A stretch of DNA of 64,000 nucleotides from Flavobacterium aquiphilum (GTDB lineage: Bacteria; Bacteroidota; Bacteroidia; Flavobacteriales; Flavobacteriaceae). A program made the position numbers and the translations under genes. The notes beneath the pieces are model-generated. The model made no database searches, was not told the DNA's origin, and saw only the letters and a list, made by a program, of their open reading frames with translations. The DNA lies in assembly GCF_027111335.1 (NCBI RefSeq), contig NZ_CP114288.1, forward strand, positions 372,001 to 436,000, given 5' to 3'. Numbering within the stretch: the first letter of the stretch is position 1; each line of letters begins with the position of its first letter. Positions 32,345-36,170 of this stretch are shown one piece after another.

Positions 32345-32455
32345 CCCGAAAAATACCGAAATTTAGGTTGGTAGATTTCGCTTTTGGCTCAACTAATAAG
32401 TGTGGGCGATAATCCAATAGTGCAAATTTATTTACCAAGAATAATTTTAAATCAA

Positions 32456-32821
32456 ATGCAAGAAACATTACACAACACCCAAGGACGAACAATCGCTTAC
32501 ATAGATTATAGTGATGACAACACAATTTATTTGTGGAATGGAACTCCAACTGGATATTTAGATTCAGATAATAGAATTTATGGATTCAACGGAAAACATT
32601 TAGGATGGTATGAGGATGGAATATTATGGGACTTAAATGGTAACCGAACGGGATTTAACAAACAATCACTTCCTGTTTTTGCAAAATTTGGACCTTTTAA
32701 AAGTTTTAAGCAATTCAAACCCTTTAAAAGTTTTAAAGAATTCGCAAAGTACAAACCTTTAAAAAGTAACGCTTGCAGTGATTCCGATCTTTCTAATTAT
32801 TTGATGTTAGGAATAAACTAA
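32456..32821 (+). CDS. 4-fold beta flower domain protein
   Basis: From the ATG at 32456 the protein has 121 residues. The N-terminal 75 residues carry repeated strand-turn units (GRTIAYIDYSDDNTIYLWNG, TPTGYLDSDNRIYGFNGKHLG, WYEDGILWDLNGNRTGF), the pattern of the 4-fold beta flower family as I know it. The second part is a Lys/Phe-rich repeat (KSFKQFKPFKSFKEF). Function of the family is unknown. A TTG at 32384 extends the frame but gives a poor N-terminus and was not used. Confidence 0.7.
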   Translation: MQETLHNTQGRTIAYIDYSDDNTIYLWNGTPTGYLDSDNRIYGFNGKHLGWYEDGILWDLNGNRTGFNKQSLPVFAKFGPFKSFKQFKPFKSFKEFAKYKPLKSNACSDSDLSNYLMLGIN

Positions 32822-33144: not shown

Positions 33145-33174
33145 TTTGAAAATCACAAAAGTTCACTAATTTTG
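33145..33174 (+). promoter_or_regulatory. Bacteroidetes promoter of the trhO-trhP-ferredoxin operon
   Basis: TTTG at 33145-33148 and TAATTTTG at 33167-33174, separated by 18 bases, a near-ideal match to the Bacteroidetes -33/-7 consensus. It lies 65 bases before the ATG of trhO. Confidence 0.75.
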
Positions 33175-33239: not shown

Positions 33240-34598
33240 ATGCAACTGTACAACACTTTAAGCGCAGAAGAAAGAGCCATTCTAATTGATGATGCCGGTA
33301 AACAACGACTTACGTTGTCTTTCTATGCGTATGCCAAAATTCAAGATCCTAAAAAATTTCGCGACGATTTATTTGTAGCCTGGAACGCACTCGATGCTTT
33401 AGGCCGAATTTATGTTGCCAACGAAGGCATCAATGCCCAAATGAGTATTCCTGCCGAAAATTTGGAGGCTTTTAGAGCGACTCTAGAAGTTTATGATTTC
33501 ATGAAAGGCATACGGTTGAACGAAGCGGTAGAACATGATGATCATTCGTTTTTGAAACTGACCATCAAAGTACGTCATAAAATCGTTGCTGACGGTTTGA
33601 ACGACGATACTTTTGATGTAACCAATATAGGCGTTCACCTGAAAGCCAAAGAATTCAACGAAATCCTTGATGATCCCAACACGATTGTAGTAGATTTTAG
33701 AAATCACTACGAAAGCGAAGTCGGACATTTTAAAGGCGCCATCACTCCCGATGTGGAAACTTTCAGAGAGAGTTTGCCGATTATCAACGAACAACTTCAA
33801 AACCACAAAGAGGATAAAAACCTGGTAATGTACTGCACTGGAGGTATTCGTTGTGAAAAAGCAAGTGCTTATTTCAAACACCAAGGTTTTAAAAATGTTT
33901 TCCAATTAGAGGGTGGAATTATCAACTACGCCAAACAGCTTAAAGAAGAAGGTCTTGAAAGCAAATTCATTGGTAAAAACTTTGTGTTTGATAATCGTCT
34001 GGGCGAAAGAATTACCGATGATATTATTTCCCAATGTCACCAATGCGGGAAACCTTGCGACAACCACACCAATTGCGAAAATGACGGATGCCATCTATTG
34101 TTTATCCAATGTGATGACTGCAAAGCAGCTATGGAAAACTGCTGTTCTACAGAATGTCTTGATATTATTCATTTGCCTTTGGTTGACCAAGTGCGTTTGA
34201 GAACCGGAAAACAAGTGGGTAACAAAGTTTTCAGAAAAGGAAAATCCGAAAATCTGAAATTTAAACATTCCGGTGAGTTGCCAAATGATGCTTTAGCAAC
34301 AAGTGAAAAACCCGCGGATATTCGTCAAAAAATAAAAGTTAAAAAAGTGCTTCTTGGTAAAGCGGAACATTTTTACGTTAAAGCGAGCGTTGGTCAATTT
34401 ACTATTGAAAACCACGAACTGAACAGCGGAGACAAAATCTTAATCTCCGGACCAACAACCGGTAATCAGGAATTGATTTTGGAAAAAATTATCGTAAACG
34501 GAGCTGAAACTGCAACGGCTAAAATTGGCGATAAAGTTACTTTTGAAGTTCCTTTCAGAATTAGATTGTCGGATAAAATATATAAAATTTTAGAATAA
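33240..34598 (+). CDS. trhO: tRNA uridine(34) hydroxylase, rhodanese type, with extra C-terminal domain
   Basis: A 452-residue member of the YceA/TrhO family, which hydroxylates U34 of tRNAs to 5-hydroxyuridine using oxygen. Order: N-terminal acylphosphatase-like domain (20-125), rhodanese domain (135-240) with loop Cys199-TGGIR-Cys205, then a Cys-rich zinc segment (Cys266, 269, 273, 279, 284, 291, 294, 301, 302, 306). The E. coli protein ends soon after this (about 350 residues); here residues 364-452 add a domain nearly the same as the C-terminus of the next gene product, with PFRIRLSDKIYKIL at its end. First gene of a three-gene operon; trhP-like starts 6 bases after its stop. Confidence 0.92.
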   Translation: MQLYNTLSAEERAILIDDAGKQRLTLSFYAYAKIQDPKKFRDDLFVAWNALDALGRIYVANEGINAQMSIPAENLEAFRATLEVYDFMKGIRLNEAVEHDDHSFLKLTIKVRHKIVADGLNDDTFDVTNIGVHLKAKEFNEILDDPNTIVVDFRNHYESEVGHFKGAITPDVETFRESLPIINEQLQNHKEDKNLVMYCTGGIRCEKASAYFKHQGFKNVFQLEGGIINYAKQLKEEGLESKFIGKNFVFDNRLGERITDDIISQCHQCGKPCDNHTNCENDGCHLLFIQCDDCKAAMENCCSTECLDIIHLPLVDQVRLRTGKQVGNKVFRKGKSENLKFKHSGELPNDALATSEKPADIRQKIKVKKVLLGKAEHFYVKASVGQFTIENHELNSGDKILISGPTTGNQELILEKIIVNGAETATAKIGDKVTFEVPFRIRLSDKIYKILE

Positions 34599-34604
34599 TT
34601 TATC

Positions 34605-35846
34605 ATGACAACACCAAACAAAATAGAACTCATGGCTCCCGCTGGGAACTTTGAGTCATTACAAGCAGGACTTGACAATGGAGCTGATTCCGTTTATTTC
34701 GGCGTAGAGCAATTGAACATGCGCGCACGTGCCACGGTAAATTTTACAATGGATGATTTACCTGAAATCGCCCGCCGTTGCGAAGAAAAAAACGTTAGAA
34801 GTTATTTGACGCTGAACACCATCATTTACGACCATGATTTATCTGTCGTAAAAACCTTGTTGAATAAGGCAAAAGAAGCCAACATCACAGCCGTAATCGC
34901 CTCCGACCAAGCCGTAATTGCGATGGCGAGAGGAATTGGAATGGAGGTTCATATTTCGACACAATTGAATATTACCAATATCGAAACCATCAAATTCTAC
35001 AGCCTTTTTGCCGATACGATGGTTTTGAGCCGTGAATTGAGTTTGCGACAAGTAAAAAAAATCACAGAACAAATCGAGAAAGAACAAATCAAAGGGCCAA
35101 ACGGCAAATTGGTAGAAATTGAAATTTTTGGTCACGGCGCATTGTGTATGGCTGTTTCGGGGAAATGCTATTTGAGTTTGCATTCGCACAACTCATCGGC
35201 AAACCGCGGTGCCTGCAAACAGAACTGCCGTAAAAAATACACCGTTATTGACCAAGAAACCGGTTTTGAAATCGAATTGGACAACGAATATATGATGTCT
35301 CCAAAAGATTTATGTACGCTAGATTTTCTAGATCAGGTAATCGATTCGGGCATTCAAGTATTGAAAATTGAAGGCCGAGGCCGTGCTCCTGAATATGTGG
35401 CCACCGTAATCAAAACCTATCGCGAAGCAATTGACAGTTATTTCGAAGGTACTTTTACCAAAGAAAAAATTGCCGTTTGGATGGAAGACTTGAACACTGT
35501 TTACAATCGCGGTTTTTGGTCGGGATATTATCTGGGTCAGGAATTGGGCGAATGGAGCGATGTTTCGGGATCAATGGCGACGCAGAAAAAAGTCTATGTG
35601 GGGAAAGGAACCCATTTTTTCCCAAAAGCGGAAATTGGACAATTCAAAATCGAAGCTTACGATATTAAAATTGGCGATAAAATATTGGTAACCGGTCCAA
35701 GCACTGGAGCGCAAGAAATGGTTATTGAAGAAATGTATGTAAATGATACCATTGCTGAAAAAGCTACCAAAGGTGACGATTGTACTTTCAAACTGCCGTT
35801 CAGAATCCGAATGTCCGACAAATTATACAAGATAGTAGAAGCCTAA
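34605..35846 (+). CDS. trhP: U32 family protein, probable tRNA hydroxylation factor TrhP
   Basis: A 413-residue U32 (peptidase U32, collagenase-like) protein. The (beta/alpha) barrel start MAPAGNFESLQAGLDNGAD and the U32 signature region around Cys181 to Cys208 are clear. Cysteines 181, 188, 204, 208 and 237 resemble the iron-sulfur ligand spacing known in UbiU-type U32 proteins. Residues 330-413 are the U32 C-terminal domain, shared with the upstream TrhO. In E. coli, TrhP (YegQ) makes 5-hydroxyuridine at tRNA U34 with prephenate and without oxygen; other U32 roles (RlhA, UbiU/V) are possible. The gene neighbourhood favours TrhP. Its stop overlaps the ferredoxin start (TAATG). Confidence 0.88.
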   Translation: MTTPNKIELMAPAGNFESLQAGLDNGADSVYFGVEQLNMRARATVNFTMDDLPEIARRCEEKNVRSYLTLNTIIYDHDLSVVKTLLNKAKEANITAVIASDQAVIAMARGIGMEVHISTQLNITNIETIKFYSLFADTMVLSRELSLRQVKKITEQIEKEQIKGPNGKLVEIEIFGHGALCMAVSGKCYLSLHSHNSSANRGACKQNCRKKYTVIDQETGFEIELDNEYMMSPKDLCTLDFLDQVIDSGIQVLKIEGRGRAPEYVATVIKTYREAIDSYFEGTFTKEKIAVWMEDLNTVYNRGFWSGYYLGQELGEWSDVSGSMATQKKVYVGKGTHFFPKAEIGQFKIEAYDIKIGDKILVTGPSTGAQEMVIEEMYVNDTIAEKATKGDDCTFKLPFRIRMSDKLYKIVEA

Positions 35847-36076
35847 TGGTTATTGTAACGTTACAAAGGGACAAATGCATTGGGTGCAACTATTGTGTGG
35901 AAATGGCGCCTGTTCAATTTCAAATGTCTAAAAAAGACGGAAAATCGGTGTTGATTAAAAGTGTAAACGCTAAAGGTTTCTTCACTTTGAAATCACCCGA
36001 CCACACTATAGTTGAAAGTTGTGAATTAGCAGCCAAAGCCTGTCCGGTGAAAATTATTACGGTAAAGGAAACCTAG
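35846..36076 (+). CDS. small ferredoxin, single iron-sulfur cluster
   Basis: A 76-residue ferredoxin starting at the ATG that overlaps the stop of the U32 gene by one base. Ligands: Cys11-x2-Cys14-x2-Cys17 (CIGCNYC) and Cys66-Pro in AAKACPV; Cys59 is an additional candidate. That is one 4Fe-4S cluster. As the last gene of the trhO-trhP operon it may feed electrons to the iron-sulfur U32 protein; this partnership is inferred from tight gene coupling. Confidence 0.88.
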   Translation: MVIVTLQRDKCIGCNYCVEMAPVQFQMSKKDGKSVLIKSVNAKGFFTLKSPDHTIVESCELAAKACPVKIITVKET

Positions 36077-36105
36077 AAAACATTTTTCATTTATTCAAAC
36101 AAAAA

Positions 36106-36138
36106 AAGTGGCTGTTCATTTAATTTGAACAGCCACTT
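36106..36138. terminator. bidirectional terminator
   Basis: Perfect 13-base arms (36106-36118 and 36126-36138), preceded by A and followed by a T-rich stretch. It lies between the ferredoxin and the convergent arylsulfatase. Confidence 0.85.
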
Positions 36139-36170
36139 CTATTTTAAACTCTGCTAAGCAGACACTATTG

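Follow-up and report, generated by a model that had tools for sequence, protein, structure and literature searches.

A U32-type C-terminal barrel on TrhO beside a TrhP-like U32 protein and a ferredoxin in Flavobacterium aquiphilum: a probable two-route operon for tRNA 5-hydroxyuridine-34

Why should two enzymes with unrelated catalytic parts, encoded side by side, end in the same domain? The question is raised by three adjoining genes of Flavobacterium aquiphilum (RefSeq assembly GCF_027111335.1), which lie in a window of 64,000 nucleotides (contig NZ_CP114288.1, positions 372,001 to 436,000 of the forward strand; coordinates below are those of the window) and encode a homologue of the oxygen-dependent tRNA hydroxylase TrhO, a U32-family protein and a small ferredoxin. 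In E. coli, two unrelated enzymes make one tRNA mark with different tRNA preferences, according to Sakai et al. (PMC6599085). We regard it as probable that the operon comprises two routes to 5-hydroxyuridine at tRNA position 34 (ho5U34), one oxygen-dependent via TrhO and one oxygen-independent via the U32 protein with its ferredoxin, and that TrhO carries a captured barrel. Well supported, as far as sequences can tell, is that a known enzyme occurs here in a new domain architecture, next to a little-studied U32 branch with a putative ferredoxin partner.

The genes follow each other on the plus strand in the order TrhO (452 residues, 33240..34598), U32 (413 residues, 34605..35846) and ferredoxin (76 residues, 35846..36076), and would be co-transcribed as a single operon. 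The U32 open reading frame starts six bases past the TrhO stop codon, and the ATG of the ferredoxin overlaps the stop codon of U32. A first-pass annotation of this DNA had reported that the ends of the two larger proteins align over about 84 ungapped positions with 44 identities. In a single BLASTP comparison, TrhO residues 368-452 and U32 residues 328-412 align without gaps at 45/85 identities (53 %) and 64/85 positives (E = 8e-28), and the common ending PFRIR[LM]SDK[IL]YKI is exactly as described. A search of the whole 5.05 Mb genome with the tail (E <= 1) returned these two copies only, the second at E = 1.9e-26. The annotation was also right that E. coli TrhO lacks this part, the K-12 protein (350 residues) having UPF0176_N, Rhodanese and Rhodanese_C only.

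By predicted structure, the tail family has the Peptidase_U32_C fold of structures 4he5/4he6; on these models the tail corresponds to the domain with which U32 enzymes end, a barrel resembling domain 2 of EF-Tu. Pfam PF16325 (Peptidase_U32_C) leaves both window copies unmatched at E <= 1 and matches 31 of 72 relatives at E <= 0.1 (best 1.1e-4), the gathering score not being reached; weak matches of the tail to G5, Pirin_C_2 and flagellin were judged to be chance once its fold had become known. In TrhO, the captured barrel covers residues 364-452 (34329..34595) and follows a linker of residues about 321-363 (34200..34328) that is predicted with low confidence (block predicted local distance difference test scores of 49-66 in residues 321-370), while the donor-type copy of U32 covers residues 324-413 (35574..35843). 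The median net charge of the tails is +3 (TrhO) and +2 (U32), that of the cores -11 and -7. The best 120 of 1499 matches of a search with the TrhO tail region all have Rhodanese_C, and a search with the tail alone, which considers short proteins only, gave no evidence of free-standing copies: the best 120 of 177 tail-only matches are 81-156 residues long, mostly lie on short contigs and, where named, in most cases bear the label UPF0176 protein or partial sulfurtransferase.

What are the two enzymes? The first scores 264.5 bits against the NCBIfam equivalog NF001133 for TrhO (cut-off 170), contains UPF0176_N (residues 25-115), Rhodanese (136-231) and Rhodanese_C (245-306), has the fold of solved TrhO in its predicted structure and carries the active-site loop CTGGIRC from residue 199, the CTGGIR loop being present in 223/223 TrhO cores. 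The second (PF01136, 234.4 bits) had been annotated as TrhP-like and then treated as TrhP; the likeness holds, the name does not. The essential TrhP residues E162, C170 and C177 correspond to E173, C181 and C188 in an active-site stretch at 35121..35228 (CX6CX15CX3C: C181/C188/C204/C208), whereas the curated TrhP model (NCBIfam equivalog NF011996), with its cut-off of 534 bits, gives only 193.9. Since it lies below this cut-off, the protein is, on sequence grounds, TrhP-like and probably of another U32 branch; trhP orthologs are found mainly in gamma- and beta-proteobacteria, as stated by Sakai et al. (PMC6599085). The four-cysteine motif of iron-sulfur U32 oxidases was found in 201 of 202 U32 cores, and the same 201 have a glutamate at the E162 position. 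At the exceptional locus (L032, genome G317), U32 is split into two frames with tailed TrhO and ferredoxin still open, owing to a recent break or a sequencing error. Cut-offs for UbiU (NF047963, 164.2 of 440 bits) and UbiV (NF047965, 56 of 275 bits) are not reached, and DUF3656, present in E. coli RlhA and in the other U32 protein of the genome, is absent from the window U32; this RlhA pair separates at 100/100 in a U32 tree, in which E. coli TrhP and UbiU sit on long branches and from which B. subtilis TrhP1/TrhP2 were left out. A sequence search for solved relatives of the U32 protein returned only a weak pyruvate kinase match.

Where, then, did the tail of TrhO come from? We built a tree of 99 TrhO and 84 U32 tails (representatives picked by identity from 198 and 202; midpoint root, 90 columns, quick search, with a program warning on long branches). 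In this tree, the TrhO tails form a single clade (support 94 in the Shimodaira-Hasegawa-like approximate likelihood ratio test, SH-aLRT) nested among the U32 tails of two families, Flavobacteriaceae, to which the window belongs (f1), and another family of the same order (f2, perhaps Weeksellaceae), while the 20 U32 tails taken from elsewhere in the phylum fall outside (support 94). Because the TrhO tails make up one clade among U32 tails, the sequences indicate a single capture long ago, in the direction from U32 to TrhO. Repeated captures are not needed, the tail tree requiring one label change (SH-aLRT 94, 90 columns), and recent gene conversion is not supported, in that tail pairs from one genome are no closer than pairs across genomes (median 0.518 vs 0.524). 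The distribution is phylum-wide on U32, which is present in 139/296 Bacteroidota genomes, mostly with matches reaching its C-terminus, and on TrhO it is restricted to Flavobacterium, to a second genus within the family sample and to one probably transferred group. The proposed move of the domain between neighbours to TrhO hence survives as a transfer from U32; its naming of TrhP as donor does not, given the curated TrhP model.

The restriction on TrhO is sharp. In the family sample (149 genomes, nearly one per genus), only G000, G127 and G042 have a tailed TrhO, and the other TrhO matches stop between residues 337 and 375, longer ones mostly crossing a stop codon. TrhO is present in 192 of 199 Flavobacterium genomes, with a tail in 187 (a few of these genes being cut at the start by a contig edge), without it in three, and cut short or unclear in two (G179, G247); it is absent or reduced to contig-end pieces in seven (G182, G194, G231, G232, G251, G263, G294). 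The nearest named U32 loci are from Flavobacterium and up to 98 % identical. In f2, 35/110 genomes have TrhO, 34 of them tailed, the 35th being a different TrhO with 59 % identity. The tailed f2 proteins are 75-83 % identical to the window protein, as compared to 53-70 % for other genera of Flavobacteriaceae (leaving G042 aside). TrhO is also patchy in this group (L268-L296, L306, L307 and the f2 genomes), has its nearest relatives in Flavobacterium TrhO and sometimes lies beside U32, so that the tailed gene was probably acquired by horizontal transfer.

The tail was subsequently lost in places and is otherwise maintained. In a quick tree of 39 of the 223 TrhO cores, four loci without a separate TrhO tail nest inside the tailed clade (SH-aLRT 95) and thus look like later losses, so that tail-less and fused Flavobacterium TrhO find no support as ancestral intermediates. 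In L029 and L085, a tail-less TrhO adjoins U32; in L027 and L028, TrhO and U32 are fused in one frame of 792 residues. Assembly error is unlikely for the fusions since the frames are 88 % identical in DNA and come from separate genomes. The fusion linker runs directly into U32 residue 6, as would result if the TrhO tail and the start of U32 had been deleted together. No further fusion was seen among the best 120 of 4010 matches of a protein search (5.8 billion proteins) that scored only the 7995 candidates sharing most words. At L085, the short spacer between TrhO and U32, where the TrhO tail is missing, has an inverted repeat. Purifying selection acts on the captured tail even where U32 is missing from the locus: the median ratio of nonsynonymous to synonymous substitution rates (dN/dS) is 0.115 (core 0.034) for 1241 pairs from 140 loci with U32 and 0.089 (core 0.033) for 30 pairs from 58 loci without it, for equal-length pairs in a set dS range that share branches and in a few cases stem from two loci of one genome. 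No compared pair reaches 0.5, the tail evolving about three times faster than the core. Retention of the tail without U32 argues against a pure linker between the two proteins. The idea that the tail allowed the loss of U32 is not supported either, U32 being missing in 107/192 Flavobacterium genomes with TrhO vs 93/126 genomes with tail-less TrhO of the family sample (compared by hand).

Do the two enzymes replace each other? In the family sample, with U32 counted through its tail, U32 was found in 17/20 genomes without TrhO vs 34/129 with TrhO, and of the three genomes with neither gene two reach a completeness of just 80 % and 66 % and the third has 8 % contamination. Some TrhO absences also fall in poor assemblies; with completeness >=90 % and contamination <=5 %, the counts become 11/11 vs 33/114 (P 4e-6). 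The same holds for f2, where U32 occurs in 72/75 genomes without TrhO vs 12/35 with it, or 66/67 vs 12/35 in good assemblies; the exception, G716, contains a fragment that is undecidable. Within Flavobacterium, a single genome (G231) carries U32 without TrhO. Over the 296 genomes of the phylum, 54 have both genes, 85 only U32, 107 only TrhO and 50 neither (odds ratio 0.30). The genes lie within 4 kb of each other in 29 of the 34 family-sample genomes with both, in no constant order or strand. Sakai et al. describe the two routes as redundant in E. coli and TrhO as absent from obligate anaerobes, and have proposed other U32 groups as substitutes of TrhP elsewhere (PMC6599085). Presence and adjacency hence favor TrhO and U32 as alternatives; the initial picture of an oxygen-switchable unit goes too far, since U32 is missing in 113 of the 199 Flavobacterium genomes.

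The third gene appears to belong to U32. Its product (cysteines 11, 14, 17, 59 and 66) matches Fer4_13 (45.3 vs 24.5 bits) and Fer4_15 (43.3 vs 22.4 bits) as a 4Fe-4S ferredoxin, and its association with U32, already suspected from this locus alone, is borne out by the genus: of the 199 Flavobacterium genomes, 86 have U32 and 87 match the ferredoxin strongly (E < 1e-25), with all 86 coinciding. The only strong match among the 113 genomes without U32 (G194) starts at base 36 of its contig, and weak matches in two others are a remnant with stops (G264) and a protein of 27 % identity (G277). Among 80 loci fetched by their U32 gene, 80 have the ferredoxin, 79 TrhO and 78 a tailed TrhO, and where U32 and ferredoxin are both present the ferredoxin frame starts <=150 bases from the end of U32 in 185/191 loci. 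G222 has, within a few kb of its intact pair, a degenerate second pair of U32 and ferredoxin with stops (near 481092-481762 on contig 16). UbiU and UbiV bind iron-sulfur clusters, and most U32 proteins are expected to do so from their motif, the role of the cluster in U32 oxidases being described as still open (PMC11574389, PMC6747719). No publication that deals with a ferredoxin as partner of U32 or with the TrhO tail was found in titles and abstract openings among the matches listed, most subscription journals being outside the search.

In the mechanism we propose, TrhO would make ho5U34 with O2, and the U32 protein would act without oxygen as a TrhP-type hydroxylase with a four-cysteine iron-sulfur site, on a separate Bacteroidota branch, with prephenate as its presumable oxygen donor and the adjoining ferredoxin as a dedicated electron partner. 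Going by the sequences, we are reasonably confident that U32 makes ho5U34 without O2, and to the same degree that the ferredoxin feeds its cluster. The barrel, on a probably flexible linker, would most plausibly offer TrhO an additional tRNA-binding surface, although on whether the tail binds tRNA at all we are evenly divided. Perhaps it shifts the set of tRNAs served by TrhO, as the tRNA preferences of TrhP and TrhO differ in E. coli. The annotation had gone further and taken the tail for a common tRNA-docking module, which is plausible but more than the comparison shows: TrhO without a tail is usual outside the tailed group. A more ambitious version, which we advance tentatively, joins U32 and ferredoxin in a two-component oxygen-independent tRNA hydroxylase, which within the literature searched would be the first case of a U32 oxidase whose dedicated redox partner is identified, and makes the barrel a portable tRNA-reading module that moved once onto an enzyme unrelated in fold and chemistry but yielding the same product.

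Several observations weigh against two routes with a captured tRNA-binding barrel. The U32 protein falls short not only of the TrhP model but also far short of the UbiU cut-off, and it is not grouped with the long-branched E. coli TrhP in the U32 tree; RlhA, another enzyme acting on RNA, carries DUF3656 instead and does not match PF16325. Tail-less E. coli TrhO makes ho5U34 in vitro (PMC6599085), and B. subtilis TrhO has, by its entry title, been solved with tRNA (PDB 9j5o). The 50/296 Bacteroidota with neither gene mean that a rule of at least one fails across the phylum and that the mark is not always needed or is made by other genes. Presence counts ignore kinship, and among 584 organisms trhP (or trhP1/trhP2) and trhO were reported to occur together more than expected (P 0.0003 and 0.0007; PMC6599085), contrary to the trend seen here. 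The tail tree was computed by a quick search on few columns and has some long branches. In a set of 20 hand-picked phylum loci, the ferredoxin adjoins U32 in only 13 (12 by BLAST, 1 by motif), a count that leaves out L205 with an iron-sulfur motif 0.8 kb downstream of U32. Finally, for the next pathway enzyme the only PF01596 methyltransferase found (G000 contig 1, 4806518-4807111), a possible TrmR candidate, is closer to O-methyltransferases of general type (E 1e-32) than to the TrmR structures (E 4e-20, 5e-18).

Some of these points would suit a U32 protein that performs another hydroxylation, at a different tRNA or rRNA position or on a metabolite, and lies beside TrhO merely as a translation gene. 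Its paralogues indeed have other substrates, 23S rRNA for RlhA and ubiquinone synthesis for UbiU and UbiV (PMC11574389), and the curated model and the genomes with neither gene fit as well. We nevertheless hold this to be unlikely, as the complementary presence in two families, the adjacency in 29/34 genomes and the fusion speak against it, an RlhA-like protein with DUF3656 is encoded separately in the genome, and UbiU and UbiV are without such a C-terminal domain.

Other alternatives concern the tail itself. It could be a protein-protein module that joins TrhO and U32 (or the ferredoxin) in one complex sharing the tRNA, in keeping with the neighborhood of the genes where both occur, their common domain, the fusion in two genomes and the four tail-loss loci, at which a tail-bearing U32 adjoins or is fused to TrhO. 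Yet nearly all of the 107 Flavobacterium TrhO genomes without U32 have kept the tail, which stays constrained in the 58 loci without U32 (30 usable pairs), and tails of one genome resemble each other no more than those of different genomes, so that a complex seems rather improbable to us. Equally improbable is that the barrel, being EF-Tu-domain-2-like, brings TrhO not to free tRNA but to the ribosome or to some other factor of translation. That the tail is a functionless passenger of a chance fusion we consider very remote: tail-less TrhO is normal elsewhere, one lineage within Flavobacterium lost the tail and its dN/dS exceeds that of the core about threefold, but all pairs remain below 0.5 and the tail is kept in 187/192 Flavobacterium and 34/35 f2 TrhO. 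Two routes to ho5U34 with a captured barrel thus remain the reading we prefer.

The surroundings of the operon add little. A possible Bacteroidetes-type promoter TTTG-N18-TANNTTTG (33145..33174, plus strand) lies 65 bases upstream of trhO; the site, a match to this consensus, was rejected as not significant, the window having 7 matches vs 5.4 by chance. A hairpin 3' of the ferredoxin gene (36104..36140) is terminator-like on both strands and weak on its own, with 5 terminator-like sites in the region vs 3.5 expected in shuffles. Upstream, a 4-fold beta flower protein (PF21784) is encoded at 32384-32821. A Flavobacterium-type operon (U32 92 % identical) also occurs on a contig filed as a Klebsiella pneumoniae metagenome-assembled genome (L082), a record that is apparently mislabelled or contaminated.

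The locus is of wider interest in several respects. A domain that moved between the two enzymes is a candidate for a tRNA-reading part that can be deleted or swapped, and a ferredoxin tracking U32 across 199 genomes of one genus is a named partner candidate for the U32 iron-sulfur cluster. If the proposal is true, the Bacteroidota U32 proteins (139/296 sampled genomes), which still carry the name of a peptidase, would furthermore gain a likely function.

How does the operon compare with known systems? With TrhO (YceA, UPF0176; PDB 9j5o, 4f67), the O2-dependent tRNA U34 hydroxylase, the window protein shares the three domains, the active-site loop and the fold, and it differs from the E. coli enzyme by the extra linker and the C-terminal U32-type barrel. 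TrhP (YegQ), the prephenate-dependent U32 enzyme, has the same U32 domain, essential glutamate and cysteines, CX6CX15CX3C motif and, going by the predicted fold of the tail family, a barrel of the U32_C type, whereas the window U32 is 30 % identical to the E. coli protein, falls below the cut-off, has 413 vs 453 residues and adjoins a ferredoxin gene. PepU32#1 and PepU32#2 of Clostridia and Helicobacter, proposed replacements of TrhP, are likewise U32 proteins of other branches whose ho5U34 role was inferred from gene content (PMC6599085); 12 U32 groups have been published. Peptidase_U32_C (PF16325; 4he5/4he6) here sits also on a rhodanese-family enzyme, in copies without a Pfam match. In EF-Tu and IF2, domain 2 is carried by GTPases, whereas the tail described here is attached to modification enzymes, with no GTPase.

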